The position numbers and the translations under genes are program-made. The notes under the pieces are model-generated. The model made no database searches. It had not been told where the DNA came from and saw only the letters and a list, made by a program, of their open reading frames with translations. This document shows positions 17,083 to 37,400 of a stretch of DNA of 39,427 bases, piece by piece (the stretch's first letter is position 1; each line of letters opens with the position of its first letter). The stretch is from an uncultured SAR86 cluster bacterium. Its GTDB lineage: Bacteria; Pseudomonadota; Gammaproteobacteria; Magnimaribacterales; D2472. The stretch covers positions 1-39,427 of the forward strand of contig CACBPT010000006.1 in NCBI GenBank assembly GCA_902541245.1, in the 5' to 3' direction.

Positions 17083-17933
17083 ATCAAGAAAGTTCATTAT
17101 GGTCGGATGCATGGAGAAGATTGCTTGCAAACAAAGCGGCTGTGGCAGGTGGAATTATTTTATTAGTCTTAATTTTCCTCGCAATTTTTGCTCCATGGAT
17201 TGCGCCACATTCATATTCGTATCAAAATCTGGAGTTAGGGGCTCAACCTCCCTCTTCTAAATTTTTACTTGGTACAGATACATTGGGCAGGGATCTTTTC
17301 AGCAGGATCTTGTATGGTGCAAGAGTTTCATTGCTGGTAGGTTTTGTTGCTACAAGTGTTGCGCTAGTTATAGGCGTGAGCTGGGGAATAGTTGCAGGAT
17401 ATTTTGGCGGAAGAATTGATTCTGTGATGATGAGGATTGTAGATGTACTATATGGTCTTCCATTTATTATTTTTATAATCTTGCTCATGGTAATTTTTGG
17501 AAGAAATATATGGCTGTTATTCGGTGCCATAGGAGCCGTAGAGTGGCTTACCATGGCACGAATTGTTCGAGGACAAGTTTTAACAATTAAAACTCAAGAA
17601 TATGTCTTAGCTGCTCAGGCTATGGGAGTATCAAACATTCAAATGTTTAGAAAACATATATATCCGAATATTCTTGGGCCCATAGCTGTTTATGCAACTT
17701 TAACAATTCCTCAAGTTATGCTACTTGAAGCATTTTTAAGTTTTCTTGGTCTTGGAATTCAGCCACCTATGAGCAGCTGGGGCACGTTAATAAGATATGG
17801 TGTTGAATCAATGGAAGAATATTCCTGGTTATTAATTTATCCGGGATTAACTTTCACACTTACATTATTTGCCCTTAATTTTTTTGGCGATGGTCTTAGA
17901 GATGCATTAGATCCGAAAATATCCTCTGATTAA
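17079..17933 (+). CDS. oppC: Peptide ABC transporter permease OppC
   Basis: Second permease subunit, 284 residues, inner membrane. The N-terminal cytoplasmic segment SLWSDAWRRLLANKAAVAGG precedes the first helix, as in DppC/OppC. The signature LLGTDTLGRDLFSRILYGAR is followed by five further helices. The EAA loop is in EYVLAAQAMGVSNIQMFRKH, and FLSFLGLGIQPPMSSWG is typical. It starts with GTG, seven bases after an AGGAG site and overlapping the oppB stop. The stop codon overlaps that of mltD by four bases. No oppD or oppF follows. Confidence 0.95.
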   Translation: MNQESSLWSDAWRRLLANKAAVAGGIILLVLIFLAIFAPWIAPHSYSYQNLELGAQPPSSKFLLGTDTLGRDLFSRILYGARVSLLVGFVATSVALVIGVSWGIVAGYFGGRIDSVMMRIVDVLYGLPFIIFIILLMVIFGRNIWLLFGAIGAVEWLTMARIVRGQVLTIKTQEYVLAAQAMGVSNIQMFRKHIYPNILGPIAVYATLTIPQVMLLEAFLSFLGLGIQPPMSSWGTLIRYGVESMEEYSWLLIYPGLTFTLTLFALNFFGDGLRDALDPKISSD

Positions 17934-20660: not shown

Positions 20661-22054
20661 CAAAAGTAACAAGATTTGCACCAAGCCCAACTGGACCTTT
20701 GCATATTGGAGGAGTCAGAACAGCTTTATTTAATTATGTATACGCAAAACAAAATAAAGGAAAATTTTTAATTAGAGTTGAGGATACAGATGCTGAAAGA
20801 TCAAAAAAAGAGTTTGAAGAAAACATATTAAAAGGGCTTTCAAATATAGGAATTAGTCCTGATGAGCCTCCCGTTCGTCAGTCTGAAAGATCTGAGTTAT
20901 ATACTTTGGCAGCAGATCAAATTTTTAAATCAGGTAATGCATATTGGTGTAATTGCTCAAAAGAAACACTTGATGAGATGCGCAAAGAGCAAGAAGCAGC
21001 AGGCAAAAAACCTATGTATGATGGCAGAAGTAGAAATCTTGGCCTTGAACGAACAAATAATTCAGTATTAAGACTAAAAACGCCTCAAGATGGAGAGTTA
21101 GTTTTTCACGATTTGGTAAGAGGCGAAGTAATTTTTCAAAATTCTGAACTAGATGATTTAATTCTTCTGAGAAGTGATGGGTCTCCAACTTATCATTTAT
21201 GTAATGTTGTTGATGATTTCAATCAAGGAGTTACAACTGTTGTTCGAGGAGAAGATCATTTAAGCAATACTCCTAGACAAATTCATATTCAAAATGCACT
21301 TGGTTATCATGCCCTTGAATATGCACATTTACCAATGGTTTTAGGACAAGATAAAAAAAGATTATCAAAAAGGAATGCTGTTACCAGCTTGCAGGATTAC
21401 TTCGATCAAGGTTATTTAGAGTCATCAATAATCAATATGCTTGCTCGGCTAGGTTGGTCGAAAGGTGATAAAGAAATTTTCTATTTAGATGATTTAGTTT
21501 CAGATTTTAGAATTCAAGAAGTTCAAAAAGCTGGCGCTATTTTTGATCCCTCCAAACTTGATTGGATTAATAACCATCATCTAGCAGCGCTATCTTTCGA
21601 TGAGTTCAAAAATAGACTAATTCCATTTTTAGATTCGCTTGGTCTTGATTACATGAAAAAGAAAAACAACAATGAAATCATTGCAGCAATGAGAAGCTCA
21701 AAACCTAATCTTCTTGGCGTAGCTCAAGCTCTAATACCTTATTTCTCTGAATTAAGTTCTTATGATGATAAAGCGGCAAAAAAATTTTTAATTGGATCAG
21801 AGGCAGTTTTAGAATTTGTGCAAAGAAAGTTAAATGGTCTCGATAAATGGAATGAAGCTTCAATTGATAAAGCTTTAAATGAGGCACAAACAGGATTAAG
21901 TTTGCCGACTCCTAAATTAAATCAACCAATAAGAATTGCTATGACTGGCAATACTCAATCTCCCTCTTTAGGATTAACTCTCTCATTATTTAATCTAGAA
22001 GAAGTTAATCAAAGAATTAATGCTGCTTTAAAGTATCTTTCTGATACAAACTAA
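20657..22054 (+). CDS. gltX: Glutamyl-tRNA synthetase
   Basis: Class I aminoacyl-tRNA synthetase that charges tRNA-Glu. The 465-residue length is normal for the bacterial discriminating type. The HIGH-class motif is PSPTGPLHIGGVRTAL, and the KMSKS-class motif is DKKRLSKRN. A cysteine pair in YWCNCSKETL marks the zinc-type region in the connecting domain. A helical anticodon-binding domain occupies the C-terminal third. It is the last gene of rnhA-dnaQ-gltX, with a four-base ATGA overlap to dnaQ. Its stop overlaps the stop of the convergent EthD gene by four bases. Confidence 0.97.
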   Translation: MTKVTRFAPSPTGPLHIGGVRTALFNYVYAKQNKGKFLIRVEDTDAERSKKEFEENILKGLSNIGISPDEPPVRQSERSELYTLAADQIFKSGNAYWCNCSKETLDEMRKEQEAAGKKPMYDGRSRNLGLERTNNSVLRLKTPQDGELVFHDLVRGEVIFQNSELDDLILLRSDGSPTYHLCNVVDDFNQGVTTVVRGEDHLSNTPRQIHIQNALGYHALEYAHLPMVLGQDKKRLSKRNAVTSLQDYFDQGYLESSIINMLARLGWSKGDKEIFYLDDLVSDFRIQEVQKAGAIFDPSKLDWINNHHLAALSFDEFKNRLIPFLDSLGLDYMKKKNNNEIIAAMRSSKPNLLGVAQALIPYFSELSSYDDKAAKKFLIGSEAVLEFVQRKLNGLDKWNEASIDKALNEAQTGLSLPTPKLNQPIRIAMTGNTQSPSLGLTLSLFNLEEVNQRINAALKYLSDTN

Positions 22055-22605
22055 GAAACACAAGATGCAATTATTGCTTTAGGATGCTCTTGCACCAAGT
22101 TTTCTAAAGTATCAAAAGATGTTTTTTGAGAAATTCCATACTCAGAGATGCCTTTTATATCATTTGGCTCAAGAAGTATGTTTTCAGAGATTTGCTTTAA
22201 ACCCTCATAAGAATTTAATGAATTCAAGTCTTCAATTTTATTACAAGGATAAAAAATTTTTTTCTTAAATTCCTGTTCTGTTAATTGAACTGACTGAGTT
22301 AGCACAAAATAATTTTTTTCGACGTTCATAAATTTTAGCTCATCTTTTCTAAGGATATCTCCCACATTTGAAGACATTTTCTCTTCTATAATTTTTAACG
22401 ACTCAATTGATTGATATTGAAAAATACTAATAGATCCAAGAGATGAATACAGGGGATTGATCCCAGCGCTAATATAATTCCTTTCATAACCTTCAAAAGT
22501 TAGAAGAGATGTGGCTAATGGAGCGTGATTTTTTTCATAATAATCTTTAAAGTCATTATCAGATAAACCATTCTTTTTATGAATGAATGCTAAAGCTTTA
22601 ATCAT
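22051..22605 (-). CDS. EthD-domain (dimeric alpha/beta barrel) protein
   Basis: A protein of 184 residues whose first ~105 match the EthD family: MIKALAFIHKKNGLSDNDFKDYYE is followed by NHAPLA, with the characteristic YYEKNHAPLA segment. EthD proteins form small ferredoxin-like dimers; some members support degradation of ethers or shape polyketide-like intermediates, but most have no known reaction. The second part (about 106-184) may be a degenerate repeat of the same fold. The ATG chosen begins at the usual family start. An in-frame ATG seven codons earlier is possible. It overlaps the end of ggt by eight bases, so translation is probably coupled. It is the last gene of the minus-strand run. 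The function is unknown. Confidence 0.7.
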   Translation of the reverse strand: MIKALAFIHKKNGLSDNDFKDYYEKNHAPLATSLLTFEGYERNYISAGINPLYSSLGSISIFQYQSIESLKIIEEKMSSNVGDILRKDELKFMNVEKNYFVLTQSVQLTEQEFKKKIFYPCNKIEDLNSLNSYEGLKQISENILLEPNDIKGISEYGISQKTSFDTLENLVQEHPKAIIASCVS

Positions 22606-24301
22606 GTTGAATGGCCACGCCTGCATTAGGTCTTCTTAGATCTGCAAAACCCTCAACGCCCTTTGAGGATATTAAAATGCTTTGAGTAGAACCCATTGTC
22701 TTTGATTCTTCAATCTTATGACCAAATGATTGAAGAATATTAATAGTATCCTTGCTAAAACCTCTTTCTAAAAGTAAATTTTCCTTCGGCCAATCTTTAT
22801 GAATTCTAGGAAGCATGGATGCTTCACCTAAAGTTAATTCAAAGTCTATAATTCCAGTCACCACTCTCAAGATAGCTGCAGGAATTAAAGCGCCTCCAGG
22901 AGATCCTGTAACAAGCTTTATAGAGTTATTTTCATTAAATACTATTATAGGAGACATGGTACTCATAGGCCTTTTTCCAGATTCAAATCTATTACCAACA
23001 CTTGCAGATCGATCAACTACACCAGATTCTCCATATTGATATGCAAAATTATTCATTTGATTGTTTAAGAGAATACCTGTTCCAGGAATTGTTACTCCAG
23101 AGCCAAATGAATATCCCAAAGTATATGTATTGGAGACGACATTACCATCACCATCAATAATTGAATAATGAGTAGTATTTTCACCTTCAACAAATAATGA
23201 TTCTGGGTTAATTGATTCTGATTTTGTGACCAAATTTAAATCAATATCTTTCGCAAGAGACCTAGCTCTTTGTTTAGAAATAATTTTTTCTATTGGTACG
23301 TCGTAAAATAGAGGATCTCCCATAAATCTGGATCGATCCATGTGTCCTCGTTGCAATGCTTCTGCAAAAATATGAATAAAGTCTGCTGAGTTTGGACCCA
23401 GATCATTAGTTTCAAAGTTTTCAATAATATTTAATCCCTCAAGCAGTACTGCAGCCCCTCCAGCAGGAGGAGGATGAGCAAAAATTTTGTAATTTCTGTA
23501 AGTTGTATGAATAGGTTCTGAAAATCTAGGCTTATAATTTTTGAGGTCTTTTGCTGATATATAACCATTATTCTGTTTCATAGCTTTGACAATTTTTTTT
23601 GAAATCGAACCAGAGTAAAAAGCCTCTTGACCATTATTTGCAATTTCATTTAATGTCCAGGCTAAGTCACTTCTTTTTACAAGTGCGTGTTTCCTTTGCG
23701 GCACATCATTTTTATAATAAATGCTTTTAGATTCATCATCTAATTTTATTTGGTCAGCACTGCCAATCGCTTGATTTAGGTCGTAGCTTATGTACATTCC
23801 TTCTTCAGCTTGTGAAATAACCGGCTGCATGATTTTTTTAAGTGGTAAATTACCATAACGTTTATGCGTCTCAAGAAGGCCAGCTACAGTTCCAGGCACA
23901 GCTGAAGCTTTATAACCATATCTTCGCTGATCATAATTATTTTTTAGAAATAAAAAATCTTTTTCGGTAAGATTATCCGGGGCGGCGCTTCTAAAATCTA
24001 CAGCAATAGTTCTTTGCTCAGCACTTAAATAAACAAGCATAAAACCTCCACCACCAAGGTTTCCTGCTCTAGGAAGCGTTATTGCAAGAGATAATCCAAC
24101 TGCAACAGCTGCATCAATGGCATTGCCACCCATATTCAAAATTTCTATTCCTATCTCTGAAGAATCTTGATTTTGAGACACAACCATGCCAGATTTTCCA
24201 ATGGTTGAGTGAAAGGGTGATGGATAGTCAATATATCTAACCTGTGCCCAAATACTTATTGATATAAACAGAAATGAAAAGATGATATTTCTATAAGCCA
24301 T
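22598..24301 (-). CDS. ggt: Gamma-glutamyltranspeptidase precursor
   Basis: Periplasmic N-terminal nucleophile hydrolase that cleaves gamma-glutamyl bonds, for example in glutathione, or transfers the glutamyl group. The 567-residue precursor has a signal peptide (MAYRNIIFSFLFISISIWAQ). GGNAIDAAVAVGLSLAIT and GNLGGGGFMLVY follow. The autocleavage site is Thr376 in GENTTHYSIIDGDGNVVS, which splits it into large and small subunits. The oxyanion Gly-Gly segment (GSPGGALIPAA) is present, as is SMLPRIH. The start is the ATG at the signal peptide. In-frame sequence further upstream lies inside the DASS gene and has no such signal. Only five bases separate it from the DASS stop, so they form an operon. 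Confidence 0.94.
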   Translation of the reverse strand: MAYRNIIFSFLFISISIWAQVRYIDYPSPFHSTIGKSGMVVSQNQDSSEIGIEILNMGGNAIDAAVAVGLSLAITLPRAGNLGGGGFMLVYLSAEQRTIAVDFRSAAPDNLTEKDFLFLKNNYDQRRYGYKASAVPGTVAGLLETHKRYGNLPLKKIMQPVISQAEEGMYISYDLNQAIGSADQIKLDDESKSIYYKNDVPQRKHALVKRSDLAWTLNEIANNGQEAFYSGSISKKIVKAMKQNNGYISAKDLKNYKPRFSEPIHTTYRNYKIFAHPPPAGGAAVLLEGLNIIENFETNDLGPNSADFIHIFAEALQRGHMDRSRFMGDPLFYDVPIEKIISKQRARSLAKDIDLNLVTKSESINPESLFVEGENTTHYSIIDGDGNVVSNTYTLGYSFGSGVTIPGTGILLNNQMNNFAYQYGESGVVDRSASVGNRFESGKRPMSTMSPIIVFNENNSIKLVTGSPGGALIPAAILRVVTGIIDFELTLGEASMLPRIHKDWPKENLLLERGFSKDTINILQSFGHKIEESKTMGSTQSILISSKGVEGFADLRRPNAGVAIQHD

Positions 24302-24306
24302 AAATT

Positions 24307-25743
24307 TTAAAATATCATTGGAGCTAGATAGAAGGCAAAAAGAGTAACTAAAAATATTCCAATAATATTTAATACAAAACCAGCTCTGATCATATCTGGA
24401 ATAGTTAGTTTGCCTGAACCAAAAACAATTGCATTGGGTGGAGTAGCTACAGGAAGCATGAAAGCACAACTTGCGGCTAAAACCACCGGAATCGTTAAAG
24501 ATATTGGGGTAATGCCTAAAGCAACAGCAACAGCACCGACAACAGGTAAGAAAGTAGAGGTTGTTGCGACATTAGATGTAATTTCTGTCAAAAATATAAT
24601 CATGGCTGCTACAGCCAATATAAGAATAATGGAAGGTACATTTTCTAAAACAGTGAGGCCTTGCCCAATCCATCCGCCCAAACCTGATGAGCCAATTGAT
24701 GCTGCTAGAGACAAACCACCGCCAAATAAAACAAGTAAGCCCCATGGAAGCTTATTTGCTTGTTCCCAAGTCAGCAGATCAGTTTTATGATTTTCTGAGG
24801 GAATGAAAAAGAAACTTAATGCTGCAATTATTGCAATGCCAGCATCTGTAAGACCAGAAAATGGGGCGTAATTATCAAGCAGTGTTCTAAACATCCACGC
24901 ACTTGCTGCTAAAGAAAAAATAGTCAAAACTTTTTTTTCATCTTTGCTAAGAGGACCTAAATCATTGAGCATATTTTGAAGCTGAAGCTTTGTTTCAATA
25001 CTTGCTACGAAATTTACTGGATAGACAATTTTTGTGATTGCATACCACGAGGAAAATAACATAAATGTTGCAATAGGAACTCCAAGTTTCATCCAATCAG
25101 TAAAAGAGATTTGAAGATCATATGTTTCTTGCATAAAACCTGCAAATATTATGTTTGGAGCTGTTCCTACTAAAGTAGACATACCACCAATGGATGCAGC
25201 ATATGCAATTCCTAATAGAAGTGAAATTTCAAAATTCCTTTTATCTCTTTGAGAAAAATTTGGAATGGTTTCAGCTACACTCGCGCAAACAGCTAGACCA
25301 ATTGGGAGCAGCATTAACGTTGTGGAGGTATTCATTACCCACATGCTTATTATTGCTGATACCAACATAAAACCGCCTATAAGTTTAGCTCCACTATTAC
25401 CAACAGCAATAAGCATCTTTAACGCAAGACGCTTATGAAGACCTGATGACTCAATTCCTAAAGCTAAAATGAAGCCACCCATAAATAAATAGATATTAGG
25501 ATTAGCATATGGAAGAGCGGCAGTTTTAAAATCAGTAACTCCAAGCATTGGAAAGCAGGCAAGAGGCAAAAGTGCTGTAACTGCAACGGGAACAGCCTCA
25601 GTAGCCCACCAAATAGCCATTAATAAAGTTACTGCCGCCACGGCCCATCCAACTGAAGAAAGAGATTCTGGATTAGGCGAAAAAAGAATAAAAAAGAAAG
25701 TTGCTAAGCCGATCCAAAAACCTCTTTTTTTATAGGCTTGCAT
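24307..25743 (-). CDS. DASS/SLC13-family sodium:anion symporter
   Basis: Inner-membrane carrier of 478 residues with about eleven to twelve hydrophobic segments. Two pseudo-repeats carry the sodium/substrate motifs SMWVMNTSTTLMLLPIG and TSNVATTSTFLPVVGAV, which correspond to the paired SNT signatures of VcINDY. Other hallmarks are WWATEAVPVAVTALLPLACFP, PYANPNIYLFMGGFILA and VATPPNAIVFG. Family members import C4-dicarboxylates, citrate or sulfate with sodium. A dicarboxylate or acidic amino acid would fit the ggt neighbour, but this is inferred. The start overlaps the stop of the upstream hydrolase-fold gene by one base, and a GAGG site lies eight bases ahead. Confidence 0.9.
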   Translation of the reverse strand: MQAYKKRGFWIGLATFFFILFSPNPESLSSVGWAVAAVTLLMAIWWATEAVPVAVTALLPLACFPMLGVTDFKTAALPYANPNIYLFMGGFILALGIESSGLHKRLALKMLIAVGNSGAKLIGGFMLVSAIISMWVMNTSTTLMLLPIGLAVCASVAETIPNFSQRDKRNFEISLLLGIAYAASIGGMSTLVGTAPNIIFAGFMQETYDLQISFTDWMKLGVPIATFMLFSSWYAITKIVYPVNFVASIETKLQLQNMLNDLGPLSKDEKKVLTIFSLAASAWMFRTLLDNYAPFSGLTDAGIAIIAALSFFFIPSENHKTDLLTWEQANKLPWGLLVLFGGGLSLAASIGSSGLGGWIGQGLTVLENVPSIILILAVAAMIIFLTEITSNVATTSTFLPVVGAVAVALGITPISLTIPVVLAASCAFMLPVATPPNAIVFGSGKLTIPDMIRAGFVLNIIGIFLVTLFAFYLAPMIF

Positions 25744-26606
25744 TATTTTAACCTCGCATAAAACATTTCAGCTGCATATGGAACCATTTGCTTGGTATTA
25801 CCATGACCTTTTTTTGTTGGAACTTCAACCATTCCCCACTTGAAAAATTGATTTACTTCTTTGGATTTAACAATTGCAGATTCAAAAAAATTTCTTCCTC
25901 TTGCTAATCTATGCTCACCTTGCTGAGAAATAATATCCCAATTTTTTTCAACATATGGAGTATTGGGTTTTGAGGATATATCAGATCTTCCCAACATCAA
26001 CAAAAAGTATTTATTCATTGCTTTTTTTAACTGTGGAGTTGTAATTCCCGATTCTGAGAGCCCAAAGGGCCATTTTTGATCTGTCATAGAAAGATACCAC
26101 CCAGGATTTGCAGCAATGGCAAGTGTGTATTTATCATCAGGTCGATGCAGAACATAGCGATGAACAAAATGAGCACCTGCACCGTGTCCATATATACCCC
26201 AATGATTTGATTTTAAATCAAATCTTTTAAGCGCTTCCAAAACTATTGGCTCAATTGCACTAAAAGCATGAAGATTTTTTTGAATAGGCTCTAAAGTTTT
26301 TGTTTTGACATTACCATAATTGAAACCCCATACCTCAGGAAAATTTTTGTTACTAAATTCTGGAACCACCACTAATAGATTTAATTCATTTGAGGCCTCA
26401 ATCCACTGATCACGATATTCTTCTGCATTTCTTTTTCTTCCATGCATTACTACAACCAGTCTTGTTTGGGAGTTTATTCTTTTAGGTTTTGTTACATATA
26501 GTGATAATGGCTTCCCTGACCAATTACTAAACTCATAGTTTAGTGACTCGGATTTAATTTCACTTGAAGAAAACGCTAAAAAAAATATTAAATAGTACTT
26601 GTGCAT
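25743..26606 (-). CDS. Secreted alpha/beta hydrolase-fold protein, nucleophile serine replaced
   Basis: A protein of 287 residues with a signal peptide (MHKYYLIFFLAFSSSEIKS). It resembles the PHB-depolymerase-like or peptidase-like alpha/beta hydrolases. The oxyanion-side motif VVMHGRKRNAEEYRDQW is present, as is PEFSNKNFPEVWGFNYGN. The nucleophile elbow reads YGHGAGAHFVHR, whereas relatives as I know them have GHSAG; residue 142 is therefore Gly, not Ser. A histidine in KKGHGNTKQM sits where the catalytic His is expected. The protein may be catalytically dead, a binding protein, or use another mechanism. No Shine-Dalgarno is visible: the ATG lies nine bases after the terminator T-tract of receptor 2. 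The DASS gene overlaps its stop. Confidence 0.75.
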   Translation of the reverse strand: MHKYYLIFFLAFSSSEIKSESLNYEFSNWSGKPLSLYVTKPKRINSQTRLVVVMHGRKRNAEEYRDQWIEASNELNLLVVVPEFSNKNFPEVWGFNYGNVKTKTLEPIQKNLHAFSAIEPIVLEALKRFDLKSNHWGIYGHGAGAHFVHRYVLHRPDDKYTLAIAANPGWYLSMTDQKWPFGLSESGITTPQLKKAMNKYFLLMLGRSDISSKPNTPYVEKNWDIISQQGEHRLARGRNFFESAIVKSKEVNQFFKWGMVEVPTKKGHGNTKQMVPYAAEMFYARLK

Positions 26607-26615
26607 GTTGTAGAT

Positions 26616-26641
26616 AAAAAAAGGGAGCCTAAGCTCCCTTT
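26616..26641 (-). terminator. Intrinsic terminator after receptor 2
   Basis: A nine-base stem (AAAGGGAGC/GCTCCCTTT in plus-strand terms) with a tetraloop is followed on the minus strand by seven T. It lies between receptor 2 and the hydrolase-fold gene, almost touching the start of the latter. Confidence 0.88.
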
Positions 26642-26656
26642 AAATTTTACTTGACT

Positions 26657-29600
26657 TTAGAAGTCTATCTTAAGATCTAAATAGTAATGTCTGCCATCGT
26701 CTCTATGAATATCAGAATAGAAGCCAAAGAAGCCATCAGCTAATGGCGCTCTTTCATCGGATATATTTCTTACCATAAATCTGAGTCTTGCATCATTACC
26801 ACTTAGATTAAAGTTCTTGTATACGCTTAAATTGCTAGTAGTCATTGAAGGTATCTTCCATGGATTTCCATCGTCATCTCTTACACCAGTATCATTTAGA
26901 TGTCCAAGTCTCAGTGTAGTAAGAGACGCACCCCAATCACCTCGACGGTAATTAATTTTTAACGTATCTTTTCTGTCTGTTCCTGTTGTTTCAACATTTA
27001 ATAAATCACCAAAGCCTTCGAGATTAGTATAAGCAGGCAAGGTTCCATCAGCTACAGCTGCTGATATTGCAGCGAACTCAGCAGAAGGTTCTTGTTCAAA
27101 CTTATCTGTAACAGATGATTGAAGTGTAATTCTAAAATCACCAAAGTCTGTATCTATGTCGTAGTAAACAGATAAATCAGTCCCTTCAATTGTTCTTAAC
27201 GCAAGATTTGAATATGGCTCATAAACAACATCTTGCTGACCAGCTGGACATATTCCAGCATTCAAAAATTCCTCATTGAATGAGGAGCTTGGATTAGCGT
27301 CTCTATGTACAGGAGAGCCTGCAATTGCATATCCACCTGTCGTGGCTGTTTGTTGAACGTTTACGCCTTCACAAAAACTTAACATCTCAGCTACTGTTGT
27401 TGCACCACCAATACCTTTTTGCAATCTAAGTAGGAGGTCATAGACACTTGAGTTATTCCTTCCAAAAAGACCAATAGTGTTATCTTTTTCAATTGACCAT
27501 CTATCAACTGTAATTGTTAAATTTTCATTAGGAGTAATTACTACTCCAAGAGTAGCGTTATCAGATTCTTCTGGTTCAAGATTTGGATTACCAAGTCTAA
27601 AGTGCAGGGTATCAGATATGGTGTAGTCGTTTGCAAATCCATTTCCTGAATTAACTTGAGATCCTTCTCTGATAAATATTCTATATTTTTGAACAGCGTC
27701 GTCTCTTCTACCAGTCCTTGTAACATAGGGCTGATTAACTTGAATCAAATTTGGTGGTCTAAATGCTGTTGAAAATGAAGCTCTTAGACTAATCATTTCA
27801 TTTACAGCATATCCAAGTGCCAATCTTCCAACTGTAGCAGAATCAGAATCTGAAAAATCCTCATGTCTAGCTGCGACTTGTGCAGTAAGTTTTTCTGTTA
27901 ATGGCATCACAAATTCTACAAATGCTGCATCAACGGTCTTTTCACCATAAACATCAACTGTTGGACTGGAGCCTAAAGCAGCTGACCTAAATGGATGAGA
28001 TCTAGTTCTTCGTGTAATTCCACAGCAATCTTGTGTGGTAATAGTTCCATCAAGAATAGGATCTCGATCATCATCATATGTTTCCTCTCTTCTCTCGAGT
28101 CCAAATAGAACTGCAACTGGGCCAGCTGGGAGCTGGAATAGCTCTGGATGACTCATCTTGAAATCTACCATTTCAAGAGTAGATTCATCATCTCTTCTAA
28201 CATCAGCTAAAATTCCTGCACCATTATTAGTTTCCCAATTTGTATCAAAAATATTAAATGCATTTGGAGTTAACCTTGTTGCACCTTGGAAGTGCTCATA
28301 CATTAAAGGATAGGTCGCTCTATTGCTTGCTAAGTCCTTAGATTTCGATCTTGCATCTACAATTGCTGCTTCCCAATCCCAACCTGAATCAAGCGTTCCT
28401 CTCATGCCAACTAATATCCTACTACTTTCTTTGGAAACATTGATGATTCTATTCAAGTTATAGGGTCTCCAACCATCAAGAGCGACAGATCTATTAGTGG
28501 GAAAGTTTAGGGACGCAGGTAATTGACTAAACCAATAATAATCTGGAGCAATGCTCAACATGAGAGATGTCAGAGAGCCTGCAGATATAGCTCTATTTGA
28601 ATCAGAGCTGTAGTGTGCTAATTCAGAAAAAAACTCCATCCCATTATCAAATTCGTGATTTATGAAAACAAAACCTTGATTTCTTTCCATTTCGCCTCTG
28701 TAATCACCACTTCCTCTTTGGCTTGATCTATTATCACCAAGGTTGGTATCAAACAAACATGTTCCGAAACCAGTAAGAGCAGCTCCAGGAAGCGCACATA
28801 ACGCACTGCCACCTCTTGGATCAGTAGCGCTAGCCATTTCAGCCTCTCCATCATTGGAAGCGTGCCAAGATTGACCAGGACCTCTTCCGCTAAAATCAAG
28901 TTGAAACCAACCATAAGTACTTGTATTTCTTAATCCAGCCCCACGGAATGGAGAATCGGCAGGGAGATATCTTTCATAATCTTGGTCATACCATCTCTCA
29001 TCTTCTGAGGCTCTTATTCTATCTCTTTCACGTTGACTTAAGAAAACTGCAACATTTGTTGCGCCATCATTGAGATCAAAACCAAATTTATATGTTAAAT
29101 CTTTGTTGGTCGCATCAAAATGCTCATACCCAGTAAGTCTGACAGATAGACTTTGACCAACATAATCTGTTTGAAGAACATTATTTACTACCCCAGCAAC
29201 AGCATCAGCACCATAAATAGCTGAGGCACCATCTCTAAGAACTTCCACTCTTTGAAGTCCATTGGTTGGGATAAGATTCGTATTTACTGTTACGGTTGGG
29301 ACAAAGTCTCCACCAATGAACTCAGTTTGATAACCAGCATTATTTACCATTCTTCTTCCATTAAGCAAAGTAAGTGTATTACCCACACCCATGCTTCTAA
29401 TGTTATAGGCTCCAGTATCTCCTCTGGCTGCGTTTACTCCCCCAGAAGCTTGTTCGGCCTCATTAAAGAAGTTCAGACCCTGTTCAACAAGGTTTTCCAC
29501 TAATTCGTCGCCGTCAGATACACCAAGTGCTTCTATATCTTCAATACTCATTACGGTAACTGGAAGAACGCCAGTAATATCTGCGCCTTTGATTTGTGTT

Positions 29601-29704
29601 CCCACAACAATAATTTCTTCAACATCAGAAGTATTTTCTTGAGCTAAGATATTTATTGAAAATGGAACAACCAAGGCAATTAAAGCCAATTTTAATAATT
29701 TCAT
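26657..29704 (-). CDS. TonB-dependent outer-membrane receptor 2
   Basis: Outer-membrane importer of 1015 residues. Signal peptide MKLLKLALIALVVPFSINIL ends in AQ. The TonB-box-like VEEIIVVGTQI follows. The plug (about 40-165) contains YNIRSMGVGNTLTLLNGRRM and ASAIYGADAVAGVVNNVL. The barrel ends YYLDLKIDF, with the expected terminal aromatic residue. Compared with receptors 1 and 3 it has a longer insertion before the plug SMGVGNT segment (FFNEAEQASGGVNAARG). The ATG chosen follows a GGGG site at six bases; an in-frame TTG four codons earlier is unlikely. It lies in a minus-strand run downstream of a secreted M20 hydrolase, which hints at a shared amide-type substrate. The substrate is not determinable from sequence. 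Confidence 0.93.
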   Translation of the reverse strand: MKLLKLALIALVVPFSINILAQENTSDVEEIIVVGTQIKGADITGVLPVTVMSIEDIEALGVSDGDELVENLVEQGLNFFNEAEQASGGVNAARGDTGAYNIRSMGVGNTLTLLNGRRMVNNAGYQTEFIGGDFVPTVTVNTNLIPTNGLQRVEVLRDGASAIYGADAVAGVVNNVLQTDYVGQSLSVRLTGYEHFDATNKDLTYKFGFDLNDGATNVAVFLSQRERDRIRASEDERWYDQDYERYLPADSPFRGAGLRNTSTYGWFQLDFSGRGPGQSWHASNDGEAEMASATDPRGGSALCALPGAALTGFGTCLFDTNLGDNRSSQRGSGDYRGEMERNQGFVFINHEFDNGMEFFSELAHYSSDSNRAISAGSLTSLMLSIAPDYYWFSQLPASLNFPTNRSVALDGWRPYNLNRIINVSKESSRILVGMRGTLDSGWDWEAAIVDARSKSKDLASNRATYPLMYEHFQGATRLTPNAFNIFDTNWETNNGAGILADVRRDDESTLEMVDFKMSHPELFQLPAGPVAVLFGLERREETYDDDRDPILDGTITTQDCCGITRRTRSHPFRSAALGSSPTVDVYGEKTVDAAFVEFVMPLTEKLTAQVAARHEDFSDSDSATVGRLALGYAVNEMISLRASFSTAFRPPNLIQVNQPYVTRTGRRDDAVQKYRIFIREGSQVNSGNGFANDYTISDTLHFRLGNPNLEPEESDNATLGVVITPNENLTITVDRWSIEKDNTIGLFGRNNSSVYDLLLRLQKGIGGATTVAEMLSFCEGVNVQQTATTGGYAIAGSPVHRDANPSSSFNEEFLNAGICPAGQQDVVYEPYSNLALRTIEGTDLSVYYDIDTDFGDFRITLQSSVTDKFEQEPSAEFAAISAAVADGTLPAYTNLEGFGDLLNVETTGTDRKDTLKINYRRGDWGASLTTLRLGHLNDTGVRDDDGNPWKIPSMTTSNLSVYKNFNLSGNDARLRFMVRNISDERAPLADGFFGFYSDIHRDDGRHYYLDLKIDF

Positions 29705-29728
29705 AATTTTCCCCAAATATGTTTAATA

Positions 29729-29758
29729 AATATAGCAATAAGGCCTATACAAAGTAAA
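29729..29758 (-). promoter_or_regulatory. Candidate promoter of receptor 2
   Basis: On the minus strand TTTACT and TATATT are separated by 18 bases. They would give a leader of about 18 bases ending in the GGGGA site. Consensus match only, in AT-rich sequence. Confidence 0.4.
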
Positions 29759-29783
29759 TATTTTGATTGTAAAAAAAAATAAA

Positions 29784-31220
29784 TTATTTTCTATAATCTA
29801 AGGGAGGCTTTCTTTCCCCAAGGAGGGGATAATACTCAAAATCTTCACCAACTGTATTTGTATACTCAGTTTTTGCCAAGGCAATAATTTCAGGATTTGA
29901 AAATAGATCTTTTGCTGTGTCTGCAAGAACTTGAGCAGCTAACTTAGTTCCTTTCAGGCCTATTGAATGACCACCTGTAGAGACTGCTTGCCAAGAATGA
30001 GCAGCTGTTCCAGGAACCCACGTTGCAGTTCTTAAGCCTGCCTGCGGAACAACCCAGCTGACATCTCCTACGTCTGTTGAACCATATGTATGACTTGTTG
30101 AATAAGGCCTTATGTTTTCTTGATCTCCAATCTTACTCCCAGGAGAGATTAAAGTTTGATGAATTTTTTTTGCATATTCATGCTCTGCTTGTGAATACTG
30201 AATTCCTCCACGTGATAGAAGGTTTTTATGCATAACCTTTTGAAGAGTTTGATTGGGAAGCTTGGAATAATTTCCATGCATCACTTCATATGTAACATCA
30301 GTTTGTGTTCCAATGGCAGCGCCTTCTGCAGCTTCAACCACCCATTCAAAGATTTCTTGAACTTTTTCCCTTCTTGGATGCCTCACATAGTAATAAACCT
30401 CAGCCAAATCAGGTATTACATTTGGCGCAAGGCCTCCTTTAGTAATGACGTAATGAATTCTTGATTCTTGAGGAATATGTTCTCTCATCATATTTACCAT
30501 CATGTTCATAGCCTCAACTCCATCTAAAGCAGATCTACCCTTATGTGGAGATCCAGCAGCATGGGCTGAGATACCGGTGAATCTAAATTTTGCAGATTTA
30601 TTTGAATTTGAGGATTCGGCATTTGCTGCATTTGAGCTACTTGGATGCCAGTGTAATACAGCATCGACATCATCAAATAATCCTGCACGTACCATGTAAA
30701 CTTTCCCAGATCCTCCTTCTTCTGCAGGAGTTCCATAGAACCTAATTGTTCCAGAAGTATTTGTCTTAACAAGCCATTCTTTAATTGCAATGGCAGCCCA
30801 AGCAGATGCTGCGCCAAAAAGATGATGTCCACAGGCATGACCAGCAATAACATCGTTTCTTTTCTCTTTAAATGGTGAAGATGTTTGCATTAGTCCAGGC
30901 AAGGCATCATATTCTCCCAAAATCCCTATCACAGGACCTCCATTCGAATACTCTGCTATGAATGCAGTTGGTATGTCTGCAACTCCAGATTGAATGTTAA
31001 ATCCATTTGCCAATAATTCTTCTTTTAAAATTGCCGAACTTTTAAATTCTTGATAGCCAACCTCAGCCCAATCCCAAATTTTTAATGCAACAGCCTCAAA
31101 AGTTTTCTGATGTTTGTTTATAGAGTTATCAAGGTCTGTTTCAGCATTTAAATAAACTGATGAAATTAATCCAAAGACAATAGTTGATTTGATGAGTGTT
31201 TTGCTTTTAAACCTACGCAT
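29784..31220 (-). CDS. Secreted M20 amidohydrolase, AbgB-like
   Basis: Zinc amidohydrolase of 478 residues similar to AbgB, the subunit that cleaves p-aminobenzoyl-glutamate, and to other M20D amide hydrolases. Metal-binding segments are seen in [31 protein letters not shown] and HWHPSS. The lid/dimerisation domain starts near [16 protein letters not shown]. The late motif [15 protein letters not shown], followed by HSW, is also typical of AbgB-like proteins. Unlike cytoplasmic AbgB it has a signal peptide ([20 protein letters not shown], cleavage near LNA), so it should act in the periplasm. Its first 18 codons are encoded inside the end of the thiolase-like gene (55-base overlap). An AGAAGA purine stretch abuts the ATG. 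Confidence 0.85.
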
Positions 31221-32623
31221 TCTTCTTTTTCTACTTGTTTAATAATTTCTTTATCATTAGATATTAATACTAATCTGTGACCTTTGGAATCTTCTGCATA
31301 AAAAACTGCTCTTAATGCATTATTTTTCTCGTACAGATTCGTGCAACCGATCACAATAGCCTCACCTTTTGTTTGCTTAGACATAGGAACAGCAACTTCA
31401 AGTTCTTCGGCTTTATTGGTTACATCTTTAGATTCAAAATCCATTAAGGGTTCTTTAGCCCAAATAGCTAATGATTGTTTAGTCATCATTCCGGAAACTC
31501 CTGTCACTAGACCTATTTCCTCTGTATTCTCACGAATTTTTAGAAGCATTTGAGCAGTAGCGTGTAACATATAATTATTTAAAGGGCCGCCTGCAAAGGG
31601 CATACCTCCAGTTATAGTTTCAATGATCTCATCTGAGAGATTTAATACTTTTGAAAACATTTGTACAGCTATAGGAAAGCAGCTATAAAGCTCATAGATT
31701 GATGGTTGTATATTATTTTTCCTAGTTGTTTTAAGGATGAAATCTGCAGCCAGCTTGAGACCAATAGGATTTGTCATATCAGGTCTTTGTATAAGACCAA
31801 CCATATGATTGGTTTCGCTTGATATTAATGGATAGATTTTTTTTGAGGAGGGTATATTAAGCTCCTTTGCAATCCTTTCGCTAGTCAAGATTAGGGCTGA
31901 TGACTGATTAACATTCCAGCTAGAATTGTGAAGTTTATTATACGGATAAGCAATCCTAGGATTGCTTATAGAAGGTTTTTGAATTTCATTTGAGGAATAG
32001 ATTTTTTGATTCCATGCATGTGGATTTTTTGAAGCAATTTTTGAAAAATTTGAATAGAAATCACCAAGAAATTTTTCATGATCGATCAGAGAAATTTTTT
32101 GTTTATGTCGCATTGCGCTCTCCATAACAGCATAGTATCCAACTGCCATCATGCCTAATGCATCAAGCTCTTCAGGCACATACAAATCCTCTTTTGCTTT
32201 TACATAATGGTCAGGATTTTTAAGTAATTTCATTTCTTTAAAATCTATTCCTTCTTTTAAAGCTTGAATTTTCTTATACCTAGCCTCTCCTCCGACAATC
32301 AGACTTGCCCTAATTTCTCCATTGATAATTTTTTTACATGCGGAATTTATTAAGTTCTGTTGCAGCACACCAATTTTGGTAACGCTGGTTGTTGCATCAG
32401 AAAATCCATGCTTATCAGCAATCCATTTTCCAGGGTCTCTGTACGTCCAATATCCTTTGGGGATTTGAATTTCATCTACGTAATTAATAATTTCAGAATT
32501 TTCTGTATCTTGAATGGCGGCTAAGGTTGCTTTCTCCATCAAGATTAATGCTTCATCAAGTTCAGCAAAAGATCCTTTTTGTTGAATGCAACCTATACCA
32601 ATTAGGACAGGTCTATTTTTCAT
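31166..32623 (-). CDS. Thiolase-like (acetyl-CoA acetyltransferase/SCP-x type) protein
   Basis: A protein of 485 residues with the thiolase fold. The N-terminal half contains [11 protein letters not shown], matching the conserved GGxE region. The C-terminal half contains [15 protein letters not shown] and [20 protein letters not shown], typical of the SCP-x-like acetyltransferases of unclear substrate. A small extra C-terminal domain follows (about 410-485; [16 protein letters not shown] onward). The usual N-terminal nucleophile cysteine in a VCxSG context is not apparent. Probably cytoplasmic, acting on acyl-CoA. The start is an ATG two codons after a less likely TTG. A TATATT box lies eight bases before it and there is no Shine-Dalgarno. 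It heads the minus-strand run and overlaps the M20 gene. Confidence 0.78.
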
Positions 32624-32770: not shown

Positions 32771-33373
32771 TTATAAATTATCTGCGTACTCGTGATTCGT
32801 TTTGCTGTGATGTTGCTCATCAGCTCGGACGCATTTGATTACATCTGATAATTTTGCATCTTTTGCAAGCTTATAATAATTTATAGCCAAAGGAGGAGCG
32901 GGGCTGTCTTCTAGCTTTCCTGTCTCAACCATATTTAGATATTCGGTATAGCTATTTACTGCTTCGTCTTCAAAATAACCGATCATTCTATGCGCAGTTC
33001 TTGTAAAGAATGCATACATAAAAAGATAAAATATTCCAAAAATCAGCTGAGAGCATAGAACTATAAATCTTTCTAAAGTGTTTGGTTGAGCAATCTCAAT
33101 GAAAAACATTAAATGCATGCGTTCGTTTTCAGCTTCTGCAAGCATCTCTCTAATTTGCTCTCCATAGCCTGCTTTCATTTTTCTTAGGCTTTTAAAATGC
33201 ATCCAAACACCAGCAACCATACCCGGAACACCAGCAACTGTCTCTAGAACTACAGCTCTATGTCCATACCTTTTTAAAAAAAAACTATCGGCAATTAGCC
33301 TGAAGAATCTTGTCATTGATAAAGCAAACGCGTCTGAAACACGCATAGTACCTTTTTTAATCAGAGAATACAT
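32771..33373 (-). CDS. aox: Alternative oxidase (ubiquinol oxidase, cyanide-insensitive)
   Basis: Diiron oxidase that transfers electrons from ubiquinol to O2 without pumping protons, as an interfacial inner-membrane protein. All six iron ligands are visible: Glu44 in VLETVAGVPG, Glu84 and His87 in AENERMHL, Glu137 in FEDEAVNSYTEY, and Glu186 and His189 in RADEQHH. The 200 residues match a minimal bacterial enzyme without the plant-type regulatory N-terminal cysteine region. Upstream, three TATAAT hexamers lie within 27 bases of the ATG, one ending five bases before it, and there is no Shine-Dalgarno. It is divergent from an SGNH-like gene and is not part of a respiratory operon here. Confidence 0.93.
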   Translation of the reverse strand: MYSLIKKGTMRVSDAFALSMTRFFRLIADSFFLKRYGHRAVVLETVAGVPGMVAGVWMHFKSLRKMKAGYGEQIREMLAEAENERMHLMFFIEIAQPNTLERFIVLCSQLIFGIFYLFMYAFFTRTAHRMIGYFEDEAVNSYTEYLNMVETGKLEDSPAPPLAINYYKLAKDAKLSDVIKCVRADEQHHSKTNHEYADNL

Positions 33374-33440: not shown

Positions 33441-34274
33441 ATGTATCATAAAGTTATACGAACTATTTTTTTTATCTTGCAAACTAAATTACATCCATTG
33501 TTGCTAATGCTCACAAGCATGCAAATGTTTGCAAATCCTATTGATGTATCAAATGAAATCTTAGAGAGTAAGAAGATTGAATCCATCATGTATGTGGGTA
33601 ATAGTTTCTTTTATTACAACAACAGTCTTCATAATCACGTTAGTTCAATTGTAAAAAATCATCGATCAAATCAAACTTTAAAACAGCGCTCAATTACCAT
33701 CAATGGATCTTCCTTGTCTTGGCATCCACTAGAAGCATATCTAAATAATGAAAATATTGGGAATTTTAGAATTGATACTGCTAATGATAATGAGTATGTG
33801 AACATAGAAGATACCGCAATTGATGCCGTAATCTTTATGGATTGCAGTCTTTGCCCGGTTCATCCAGAGACTAAAAAAGGTTTTCATGAGAATGTTGCTA
33901 AATATACAAAAATCATTAGAGCTAAGGGGATGGAGCCAATCCTTTTCATGTCATGGCCATATAAAAATAAACCATCTATGATTAAGGGGCTTAGAGAAGA
34001 GTTCTTTAAAGCTGCAAAGGTTAATAATATTCTTTTAATACCAGTGGGCGAAGCATTCCATGCCTTTGAAAAGAAATATCCAGAAATTAACCTTTACACT
34101 GATGATTTTCGACATCCTTCAAAAGAGGGCACATACCTTGCTGCATCGGTTGTGTTTGGAACTCTTTTTAATCTTGAAGTAAAGGGCACGAATGGAAAGA
34201 AGGGCATCGATGCAAAAACTACGCTTAAAATTCAAGAAATTGCTGACTTAACAGTTAAAAAATTTTTTAATTAA
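33441..34274 (+). CDS. SGNH-like secreted hydrolase
   Basis: A 277-residue protein with an N-terminal hydrophobic segment (about 7-31, ending QMFANP) that looks like a signal peptide. The SGNH fold is suggested by the first block IMYVGNSFFYYNN, with nucleophile Ser55, and by the last block TDDFRHPSKEGTYLAA, with the Asp222-x-x-His225 dyad. A central VIFMDCS segment may be the third block. Such enzymes are esterases, often deacetylating polysaccharides or glycans. This sequence resembles the variants common near TonB-dependent receptors, and receptor 3 follows after 162 bases. The substrate is unknown. No Shine-Dalgarno precedes the ATG. Confidence 0.65.
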   Translation: MYHKVIRTIFFILQTKLHPLLLMLTSMQMFANPIDVSNEILESKKIESIMYVGNSFFYYNNSLHNHVSSIVKNHRSNQTLKQRSITINGSSLSWHPLEAYLNNENIGNFRIDTANDNEYVNIEDTAIDAVIFMDCSLCPVHPETKKGFHENVAKYTKIIRAKGMEPILFMSWPYKNKPSMIKGLREEFFKAAKVNNILLIPVGEAFHAFEKKYPEINLYTDDFRHPSKEGTYLAASVVFGTLFNLEVKGTNGKKGIDAKTTLKIQEIADLTVKKFFN

Positions 34275-34349
34275 TCAAAAATTTAAATATTTTACAAAAC
34301 TAAGTAATATTTTTATGGAATTTTAATGTTACAAAATTGCTCAAATTTA

Positions 34350-34383
34350 TTGACTTTAAGGCATTTTTGTCACAGAATTGTCA
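34350..34383 (+). promoter_or_regulatory. Candidate promoter and direct repeat upstream of receptor 3
   Basis: TTGACT (34350-34355) and CAGAAT (34373-34378) are separated by 17 bases, a moderate promoter. TTGTCA occurs twice (34367-34372 and 34378-34383), 11 bases apart, about one helical turn. The repeat may be a second -35 or a regulator site. Confidence 0.35.
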
Positions 34384-34395
34384 AAATTATGGCAT

Positions 34396-34430
34396 AGCTG
34401 TGCATACAGCTTTTTTATTAAAGGAAAGGG
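34396..34430 (+). promoter_or_regulatory. Terminator-like leader hairpin and ribosome binding site of receptor 3
   Basis: AGCTGT (34396-34401) pairs with ACAGCT (34406-34411) around GCAT, directly followed by a run of T to 34416. The strong Shine-Dalgarno AAGGAAAGGGG comes next. It could be an attenuator of the receptor gene or a weak terminator for the SGNH-like gene upstream. Confidence 0.45.
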
Positions 34431-34436
34431 GATATT

Positions 34437-37400
34437 ATGAAAAACAAACTTTTTTTATTGTTTGGGTTATTTGCAGTAACTGCATTTGCTCAAGATACCA
34501 GCAATGATGCTGATGTCGAGCAGGTTGTAGAAGTTGAAGAAATAACAATTATCGGTTCAAGAATTAAATCAAAAACTACTTTCGAAAGCCCAGTACCAGT
34601 TACTATTGTAACCGGTGAGGATTTTGAAAATAGGCTTTTTGATTATGCAAGTTCTGCCGTAACAAGATTGCCGTCTGCTGCAGGAACCGAAAGTGGTCCT
34701 ACTGGGAGTAGTGCAATTAATAACTTAAGACTTGGTTCTCAAAGAACACTTGTAACTGTTAACGGAAATAGATTTGTTTCCTCTAACGGTTATGGTGGTG
34801 GCCAGGTCGATGTTAACAACATTCCAACTATGTTAATTGACAGAGTGGAAGTTATTAACATTGGTGGTGCTGCTGTTTATGGCTCTGACGCAGTTGCTGG
34901 TGTGGTGAATTATATTCTTAAAGATGACTTTGAAGGATTCAAATTCCAATATAACCATAATAATATTTTTGAAGACCTAGACCTTCAAAGAGGATATAAA
35001 ATGCTTTTTGGTGGCAACTTCCTCGATGGCAAAGCTAATTTAACATTCTCTCTAGATTACACAACAACTGGTGGATCAAGAGTGATGGATATCCCCGAAG
35101 ATGTTAAATGTAAAGCCCTAGGAACTGACTCTAACGGAAGAGTCCCTGGTCAAAATTTTGTATTTCCTGCATGTGAATCTTTCACATATTTTGGTATAAG
35201 TCCAAACGGTAGTATAGCTTTTGGTGATCTTATCGACACTCCAGGCGCACTTGGTTATGGTCCAAATGTATTGGGTGTAACTGAGCCAGGAATTCCATTA
35301 ACTAATTTTTATGGTTTTGGTCCAAGTGGAGCTTTACAAATTAATACACCAGGTATCTCAACCGATGGATCACTCAGATATAGAGGCGGTGATGGTCTTA
35401 ACTTCGGTTTAAGACATGATCCAGATCGTTATACAGTGCCAATTGAGAAGTTTAACTATGTAACTACAGGTAGATTTGATGTTACACCTAGAATGAGAGT
35501 TTCAGGTTCCGTTTACTTAACTTCATATGAAGCTATTGACGAAAGCACTCAAGGTTTTTACAACACAGGTTTATTTGGATCCCCTTCAGATACACTTGTG
35601 CTTGAATGTAATCATCCTTTCTTAAGTGCAGAAGATTCTGCATTTATTTGTGCTAATTTAGTGCAACCTAATGGAACTAGCCCTTATGGCAACGAAACTT
35701 TTAGATTTGGTAAAGCTTGGGGTCCATATTACAAATCATTAGGTGGAGAAGATCAAGATAACGTTGATAACAGAGTCTTTAATCTAAGAATCGATGGTGA
35801 CTTCGATATGGGTGATAGAACTTTCAATTACTCAGCAGGTGTTACAGACGGTGAATCTAGAAGAGTAGCCTCAAGACCTGATATTATTAAAGGAAGATTG
35901 TTTGCAGCTCTTGATGCTGTTCTTCTTGCTGATGGCACTATTGACTGCAGATATAATCAGCTAGGTGCAGGTGCCTACACTAACGATGTATTCCAAAACC
36001 CCTACATGCAACCAGGCGGAACAACTGACCCATCTTACTTTTTACTAGGTGAACCAGGTGATTGTGTGCCATTAAATCCTTTCGGTGACGGCACACAGAT
36101 GTCTGATGCTGCCATCGATTATGTAGGTGGCATGGTTTCAACCAGAACAACAACAGAACAAAATTATAACTTTGGTTATATTTCTGGACCTGTTGCAGAT
36201 CTACCAGCTGGTGAACTTTCAGTTCTAGTTGGATATGAAGAAAGAACAGAATCATACAAATTCAAAGATTCTTTAATTGATGAAGCATATGTTGCAGAAG
36301 GTTCTGGTGGTATGACCGCCTTAACTGGTAAGTTCTCTACTTCAGATACTTATATGGAGGTAGTTGCTCCAATAGTTTCTCCAGACATGAATATTCCATT
36401 CCTTGAAGAAGTAACTCTTTCAGGAGCTTACCGTGAAATGGATCATAGTGTTTCTGGCGAGGATAATGTAGACAGTCTTTCATTGGTTGTTAGAGTAAAT
36501 TCAGCATTAGCCCTTCGAGTAAATCAGCAAAATACAGTTAGATCTCCAGCTATTGGAGAGGCTTTCCAGCCGCAATTTATTTCTAGCTATATCATTGATG
36601 ATCCATGCGACAGATCAAATGTAAATTCTGGTCCCGCACCAGAAAATAGAGCAGCTAACTGTTCTGCAGCTGGAATTGTTCAGCCGTTTGCATCAACAGC
36701 TGAAACTGCATCAATTTTCACTTATAGAGGTGGTAACCCAAATCTGTTAACTGAAAAATCTGATTCACTTAATGTTGGTGTTATTTACACCCCAACAAAT
36801 CTTCCGTTTACCGCGGTCGAAATTCCAGGAAACTTAAGAATTGCTCTTGACTACATTACTGTTGACTTAACAGATGCAATTATTGATTTGAATCCTGATG
36901 AAGTTATGTCAGCTTGTTATGACGCTGATCCAAGTTCATTCCCGAACTCATTTTGTTCACAGGTATTCCGTCTCTCTAATAATCAAATGGATGGTTTCAA
37001 TCCCGGTTCCATTGGTGTGCAAGGTGGAACATCTAATGGTTCAACATACGACTATGAAGCCTATATTGTTGAGCTAGCATATGATATTGATGTTGAAGAT
37101 ATCTTCGAAGGTGGTATTGGTAACATTGGATATAATCTAAAAGGATATCAAGAGAAAAAGGATGCTTTCCAGGCAACCGCTGCTTCACCTGTAGTTGATA
37201 CTACTGGAGCATTTTCTAAGCCTGAAAATAGATTCCTTCATACATGGGACTGGTCATATGATGATTGGTATGTCTATGTCGACGGTGTATATACTGATGG
37301 TGGTTTAACTGATTTCTACTGGAACAAAGAAACTCAGCCTGATAAATATGTTTACATGAACGCTGATGGTAGCACCGGCAGAACATACCCATTTGAAATG

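Follow-up and report, generated by a model that had tools for sequence, protein, structure and literature searches.

A conserved SAR86 locus joining a TonB-dependent receptor, a DASS symporter and a variant gamma-glutamyltransferase: a possible uptake system for amide-linked acidic conjugates

SAR86 bacteria are abundant and uncultured, and their diet has been inferred mainly from gene lists. A stretch of 39,427 nucleotides from one of them (assembly GCA_902541245.1, contig CACBPT010000006.1; hereafter the window), whose source genome comprises 951 kb and is 58% complete, carries a locus in which a TonB-dependent receptor, a DASS symporter and a variant gamma-glutamyltransferase (GGT) are encoded together. 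Seven genes, all on the minus strand, were recognised between positions 22051 and 32623 by an open reading frame scan and Pfam and NCBIfam profile searches. An earlier interpretation made from the letters alone (the sequence-only reading) spoke of eight genes; its own list also names seven. From upstream to downstream they encode a thiolase-like protein of the PRK08257/4egv group (31166..32623; 485 residues), an AbgB-like M20 amidohydrolase with a leader-like start (29784..31220; 478 residues), the TonB-dependent receptor (26657..29704; 1015 residues), an alpha/beta-hydrolase-fold protein resembling poly(aspartic acid) hydrolase-1 (PahZ1; 25743..26606), the DASS sodium-coupled anion symporter (24307..25743; 478 residues), the variant GGT-fold enzyme, also with a leader-like start (22598..24298; 566 residues), and an EthD-like protein (22051..22605; about 184 residues). 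Gene starts were shifted by eye to a leader-bearing ATG before spacing was measured, and leader peptides were judged by eye throughout. The thiolase and M20 genes overlap by 55 bp, hydrolase and DASS by 1 and GGT and EthD by 8, while gaps of 79, 50 and 8 bp separate M20 from receptor, receptor from hydrolase and DASS from GGT, respectively. These values bear out the earlier description, in which neighbouring genes overlap or stand a few bases apart and only the surroundings of the receptor gene depart from this.

The family assignments differ in firmness. The GGT fold extends along the whole protein (TIGR00066, 471 bits against a cut-off of 358, E 4e-141; Pfam G_glu_transpept, E 4e-144), and the symporter likewise matches TIGR00785 over its whole length (296.7 bits against 198.6, E 3e-88). 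The receptor possesses both the plug and the beta-barrel domain (Pfam), and the M20 protein (TIGR01891, E 1e-77) carries a dimerisation domain in the profile search. The thiolase-like protein scores 252.7 bits with PRK08257 (NCBIfam, E 8e-75), under the curated cut-off of 654; the nearest solved chain is 4egv (E 5e-27), which is not known to have proven thiolase activity. The EthD assignment rests on a Pfam match of 24.4 bits over 35 residues, the cut-off being 22. No Pfam hit was obtained for the hydrolase-fold protein, which instead matches PahZ1 (6ve6) at Foldseek rank 1 and with a profile-search E of 4.5e-53.

This gene cluster is a real, conserved locus, whose order recurs in related genomes more than chance would allow. 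Adjacency was tabulated in 117 genomes of the order, all of them 80% complete or more apart from that of the window; here L numbers denote fetched loci, G numbers genomes and f1 to f4 the SAR86 families. Within the window's genus the order gltX, EthD, GGT, DASS, hydrolase, receptor, M20, thiolase is found wherever the contig suffices (L032-L044), one branch having a LysR gene inserted between receptor and M20. The sequence-only reading had named scattering of the genes in close relatives as the outcome that would count against it, and in close relatives the order is kept. Across the order, DASS and variant GGT genes are adjacent in 69 of the 73 genomes that hold both, in three families: they lie at most 300 bp apart in 43/47 such genomes of f1, in 15/15 of f2, where they are convergent, and in 11/11 of f4. 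The four non-adjacent cases are G026 and G027, with DASS elsewhere, G034, with the genes on different contigs, and G105, a partial hit at 760 bp; in G026 and G027 (L053, L056) the receptor gene still lies directly upstream of that for GGT. A receptor gene also stands directly upstream of DASS, or of the hydrolase gene preceding it, in all 27 loci with neighbouring DASS and variant GGT (chosen from loci already fetched, and so no random sample), the hydrolase gene intervening in 12.

The remaining genes are distributed more narrowly. The EthD-like protein was clustered only in the window's genus (10 loci), and the hydrolase-fold protein only there and in L048. In f1, M20 and thiolase-like genes are adjacent in 35 of the 36 genomes with both, and in other genera of the family this pair may face the receptor-DASS-GGT unit. 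All four of DASS, GGT, M20 and thiolase occur in 35 of the 58 f1 genomes, none in 7 and parts of the set in the rest; since the genomes are incomplete, such absences are soft. Where M20 and variant GGT share a contig in f1 they invariably lie within 12 kb of each other (39/39), on the same strand in 17. Both were found in 40 f1 genomes, M20 only in 1, GGT only in 7 and neither in 10 (Fisher p 3.6e-6, without correction for kinship or genome incompleteness). From the adjacency counts across families, the stable core is receptor-(hydrolase)-DASS-GGT, to which M20 and thiolase are an addition in one family, f1. Broken or frameshifted copies, perhaps assembly errors, were seen in single drafts for DASS (L061, genome G006, 15366-16700), GGT (L082) and thiolase (G111).

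The locus does not read as one simple operon, because a conserved, strong terminator-like hairpin with a T run follows the receptor gene (26620..26641, minus strand) and so stands inside the gene set. A similar hairpin is present in 21 of 22 receptor-to-next-gene gaps from f1 and f4, L188 being without it, and its stem shows paired changes among sequences. In L172 and L173 the T run reaches as far as the DASS start codon; expression of DASS in these loci must therefore come from read-through or from a promoter within the receptor gene. The hairpin would probably keep the receptor transcript above those of the enzymes, which would be partly dependent on read-through. A weak promoter-like site precedes the receptor gene (29729..29758, minus strand); it is not evidence on its own, and promoter-like sites in the region scanned were rarer than in shuffled sequence (29 against 41.6 expected), while terminator-like sites numbered 12 against 7.4. 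Other strong AAAGGG-type terminator hairpins follow a lon-like gene (8543-8565) and the window's second TonB receptor gene (37591-37615), so this style of hairpin is not unique to the receptor gap.

The most distinctive component is the GGT. Compared with E. coli Ggt it keeps the nucleophile Thr391, the carboxylate-binding Arg114, Ser462 and the oxyanion glycines, with Thr in place of Ser463. By alignment, however, Asn411 is replaced by Gly (codon 23114..23116, minus strand) and Asp433 by Asn (codon 23048..23050, minus strand). Both replacements occur in 40/40 locus rows covering the two sites, the table omitting two truncated rows (L074 and L085); in L053, moreover, Arg114 is replaced by Lys and positions 462-463 are different. 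Thus the enzyme lacks the alpha-amino-contact residues that mark a canonical GGT (Asn or Glu at 411, Asp at 433), and its Asn433 within a GGT fold is the mark of the class IV cephalosporin acylases. The sequence-only reading had treated it as an ordinary gamma-glutamyl enzyme, which is hard to reconcile with changes at the alpha-amino contacts in every row. Thirteen genomes yielded 30 GGT loci, of which 11 are DASS-linked, 11 canonical and 8 of a distant third type. All 11 DASS-linked proteins have Gly411, Asn433 and a non-aromatic residue 444, whereas all 11 canonical ones from the same genomes have Asn411, Asp433 and Tyr or Phe at 444. In f2, canonical and variant ggt genes stand in tandem beside DASS.

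An abbreviation in the literature on such variants, GTA, is presumably glutaric acid, and is not spelled out in the passages concerned. Those passages, from PMC11421214, apply a GGT variant to 'GTA' conjugates and repeat a point on the E. coli D433N mutant made in parts of PMC8062742, namely that this single change abolishes transpeptidation and introduces glutaryl-7-ACA acylase activity. The latter source also describes the equivalents of 411, 430 and 433 in B. subtilis GGT as touching the donor's alpha-amino group, a bond from Asn411 to Tyr444 of the lid, a further rise in the acylase activity of D433N with Y444A/G484A, and Asn at 433 in class IV cephalosporin acylases (PMC8062742). From the pocket residues and these published mutants it is predicted that the variant GGT is a hydrolase tolerating, or preferring, donors without a free alpha-amino group.

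Outside SAR86 the variant pocket is rare. Among gammaproteobacterial GGTs, 23 of 25 examined are canonical; in a sample of the phylum the same holds for 29 of 30 best hits. The two non-SAR86 exceptions are G257 (L190/L223; Gly411, Thr433) and G139 (L197; Gly411, Asn433). A quick tree built from 68 GGTs unites the Gly411 proteins in a single clade (SH-aLRT 92, or 91 for the SAR86 variants by themselves) and shows one change of state, L197 being a long branch. G257, a distant gammaproteobacterium, encodes on one strand (L216) a receptor, an M14 carboxypeptidase with an AstE/AspA-type match, a solute-binding protein, a second receptor, the Gly411 GGT, a TAXI solute-binding protein, an M20 protein (57% identical), a creatininase-family protein, a sensor kinase and a sigma-54 response regulator; elsewhere it holds an Asn411 GGT (L217) and an atypical one (L218; Met411, Asn433). 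In G139 (L219) the Gly411/Asn433 GGT gene likewise follows a receptor gene. The grouping of receptor, Gly411 GGT, M20 and an organic-acid-type binding protein in G257 supports the proposed link between these functions. G257 and G139 are single genomes, and their Gly411 GGT loci could have arisen by common inheritance or by transfer. Four Bacteroidota loci (L108, L112, L117 and L131) also have M20 beside GGT, with DASS about 2 kb away. They were not counted as independent support, because their GGT is of the third type with a different pocket and M20 is separated from DASS by a gene that, read by eye, is ABC-F-like.

The window's DASS protein carries MNT as its first SNT motif and SNV as the second. 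MNT is present in all aligned SAR86 rows, those of f3 included, except L188 (FNT); the f3 symporters are 43-47% identical, and no GGT gene was seen beside DASS in the four f3 loci read. In G026, DASS precedes, in place of GGT, a leader-bearing lyase of the adenylosuccinate-lyase superfamily. There (L184:5550-11597) a different TonB receptor of 738 residues, DASS, this enzyme and a DUF4886 protein form one set. Members of that lyase superfamily commonly release fumarate. Parts of PMC8652582 state that the DASS carrier VcINDY interacts with C4 dicarboxylates, glutarate and alpha-ketoglutarate and not with glutamate, and that certain other members of the family do interact with Asp or Glu. The ligands of VcINDY and the lyase neighbour in G026 would fit dicarboxylate import by the SAR86 symporter. 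Import of glutamate by DASS, one of the two options in the sequence-only reading, is uncertain.

The sequence-only reading had listed the PahZ1-like protein as a secreted protein of hydrolase fold. Its nucleophile elbow reads GHGAG in 12/12 SAR86 members, with Gly (codon 26181-26183, minus strand) where the solved relatives have Ser, and for this reason it is probably no hydrolase. Its predicted model is of moderate quality (mean pLDDT 69.5). Two other PahZ1-like proteins were found in 275 genomes of the class; a relative in another gammaproteobacterium (L257) keeps GHSAG and adjoins a TonB receptor and a DUF4886 gene. A comparison of strains bears on its role. Between L078 and the window, DASS is 89-97% identical, the receptor 49-65% and most of the hydrolase gene 58-70%, and the receptor/hydrolase region of L078 is closer to that of L062 and L061 (77-88%); the breakpoints fall around 29700 and 25850, with flanking genes 80-97% identical. 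Receptor and PahZ1-like genes have been exchanged as one cassette between near strains, which suggests that the PahZ1-like protein works with the receptor. The predicted model of the receptor (mean pLDDT 60) is too uncertain for a guess at its ligand.

The M20 protein aligns with E. coli AbgB at 40% identity across 475 residues (E 4e-106) and with AbgA at 25% across a shorter stretch. No AbgA gene was found in the locus; the genome, which is 58% complete, encodes another M20 protein, with 27% identity to AbgA across 305 residues. The E. coli enzyme is described in parts of PMC5082436 as an AbgA/AbgB heterotetramer that needs Mn, prefers p-aminobenzoyl-glutamate and has no leader. A total of 397 M20 relatives were confirmed, with titles that include Bacteroidota, Gemmatimonadota, Opitutales and other Gammaproteobacteria; the M20 protein of the relative G021 shows 96% identity. 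Many of 23 N-termini inspected look leader-like, so secretion seems to be a trait of the M20 family rather than special to this locus. The leader-like start on which the sequence-only reading had placed weight as the key departure from E. coli is therefore there, albeit common among AbgB-like relatives. Two distant M20-like hits (G008:C4:60573 and G011:C1:17502) are long frames with one in-frame TAG. In seven loci (L064-L067, L070, L072 and L073) a gene for a TauD-like dioxygenase directly precedes the thiolase-like gene, at a distance of 10-18 bp; the taurine-like substrates this brings to mind are a lead only, since the window's locus has no such gene.

Taking the protein families, their linkage, the pocket changes, the missing nucleophile and the conserved hairpin as read from the DNA, we infer the following course. 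The receptor would bring an oligomeric or conjugated amide-linked acidic compound into the periplasm, where the PahZ1-like protein, lacking its nucleophile, may serve it as a binding partner. The variant GGT would then act as a hydrolase, and not a transpeptidase, on an omega-carboxyacyl amide whose donor lacks a free alpha-amino group; candidates are dicarboxylyl amides resembling glutaryl amides and gamma-glutamyl units that are N-acylated. In f1, the AbgB-like M20 enzyme would cleave a second amide; the freed dicarboxylate would enter through DASS, and the thiolase-like and EthD-like proteins might conceivably act on the products in the cytoplasm. That the locus is a TonB-linked nutrient-uptake system for amide-linked acidic conjugates is accordingly proposed tentatively, with a little less than an even chance of being right. 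It retains the TonB-linked uptake and amide cleavage of the sequence-only reading; an ordinary type of GGT is improbable, the hydrolase-fold protein lacks its nucleophile, and glutamate import is in doubt. A bolder form is possible, if rather unlikely: an undescribed catabolic system in which evolution would have arrived at the change that engineers introduced into the enzyme (D433N, along with loss of Tyr444 and Asn411), so that a GGT became an amidase acting on donors that lack an alpha-amino group, and would have coupled it to a TonB receptor, a dicarboxylate symporter and a PahZ1-like protein that has no nucleophile and moves with the receptor allele, the substrate being an overlooked class of dissolved organic nitrogen.

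Several observations weigh against the proposal. The E. coli D433N mutant retains 82% of hydrolysis (PMC8062742, in part), so the variant GGT could still act on gamma-glutamyl compounds. The G257 enzyme has Thr, not Asn, at 433. M20 lies away from the core in most f2 and f4 genomes (same contig within 12 kb in 1/1 and 0/2, respectively) and is missing from 7/47 f1 genomes holding the variant GGT. The MNT motif, considered as a sign of coupling between DASS and variant GGT, is uninformative: because f3 has it without a variant GGT, it would be a mark of lineage.

The retained hydrolysis of D433N, together with the strong GGT family match and the DASS carriers that interact with Asp or Glu, would suit ordinary scavenging of gamma-glutamyl peptides or glutathione, with periplasmic hydrolysis by GGT and uptake of glutamate by DASS. 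This account, close to the sequence-only reading, is judged improbable, since both alpha-amino contacts are changed throughout, these genomes carry canonical GGTs at other sites, glutamate is not bound by VcINDY (PMC8652582, in part) and small peptides generally need no TonB receptor. Similarly improbable is the coexistence in f1 of two pathways that merely happen to be neighbours, the receptor-DASS-GGT unit found across the order and a thiolase-M20 unit serving a purpose of its own. The hairpin after the receptor gene, the varying relative orientation of the units, the position of M20 in f2 and f4 and the finding that, among the best 80 of the 397 M20 relatives, 42 loci (some on short contigs) have no other window gene nearby would all accord with it; the invariable proximity of M20 and variant GGT in f1, their co-occurrence, uncorrected for kinship, and the G257 locus speak for a connection. 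For the one linked system of the sequence-only reading, the gene order kept in close relatives and the co-occurrence of M20 and variant GGT in f1 count in favour, and the separate M20 of f2 and f4 and the hairpin that splits the set count against.

A specific form of the amide-linked-conjugate proposal, which seems less probable still, has acidic polyamides or oligomers (poly(aspartate), poly-gamma-glutamate or folate-type gamma-polyglutamates) as the food, their chains bound by the PahZ1-like protein and trimmed by GGT and M20. Homology to PahZ1, which in Pedobacter cleaves beta-Asp amides (PMC4456602, in part), homology to AbgB and the M14 carboxypeptidase of the G257 locus point in this direction. 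Yet the PahZ1-like protein has no nucleophile and is confined to the window's genus and one other, and E. coli AbgAB acts poorly on folates (PMC5082436, in part). A role in siderophore uptake, in which the chelator is recycled and the citrate or succinate set free from it is carried by DASS, is very unlikely. In its favour are the weak resemblance of the receptor to siderophore, heme and B12 receptor models, all far below cut-off, and the human citrate carrier among DASS relatives; against it, the window's second receptor gives such weak matches too, and the scanned stretch showed no recognisable iron gene.

Around the locus, an alternative oxidase gene (32771-33373, minus strand) lies outside it, 147 bp upstream of the thiolase-like gene, a position it occupies in some relatives only. 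A DUF4886 gene and then the second TonB receptor gene (33441-37571) diverge from the locus; DUF4886 genes also adjoin receptors or DASS in L172, L184 and L257. Finally, a TonB receptor gene followed by genes for a family-5 solute-binding protein and permeases (11427-17933) resembles a separate, peptide-type uptake set.

A number of parallels can be drawn with known systems. E. coli Ggt shares with the SAR86 enzyme the whole-length fold, Thr391, Arg114 and the oxyanion glycines, and the class IV cephalosporin acylases share with it the Asn reported at 433; Gly411 (as compared with Ggt), the non-aromatic residue 444 and a gene joined to a TonB-receptor/DASS unit set the SAR86 enzyme apart. As in the E. 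coli abg locus (AbgA, AbgB, AbgT), an AbgB-related M20 gene, and a hydrolase beside a carrier for acidic compounds, are present, but in SAR86 the M20 protein has a leader-like start, the locus holds no AbgA gene, DASS replaces AbgT, and a TonB receptor and GGT are added. The PahZ1 systems of Sphingomonas KT-1 and Pedobacter KP-2 are related in fold and sequence of the hydrolase-fold protein, and differ in having the nucleophile Ser. DASS carriers such as VcINDY and SLC13 agree in family profile, and NaCT in the second motif SNV, the SAR86 proteins differing in the first, MNT for SNT. Marine TonB-receptor nutrient loci in general likewise set a receptor by periplasmic enzymes and an inner-membrane carrier, with glycoside-cleaving families where the SAR86 locus has amide-cleaving ones. 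What is new is thus the occurrence of variants of known enzyme families within a known kind of TonB-linked uptake locus. In the open-licence PMC literature no title on this gene set and no paper on SAR86 and gamma-glutamyltransferase was found; print elsewhere is possible.

Three SAR86 families, whose genomes measure about 1-2 Mb, have retained the receptor-DASS-GGT unit, and its substrate is for this reason probably a regular food. From the pocket change one would expect this food to be amides of the glutaryl or N-acyl-gamma-glutamyl type in preference to free gamma-glutamyl compounds. It also advises caution against reading 'ggt' in SAR86 genomes as a sign of glutathione metabolism.

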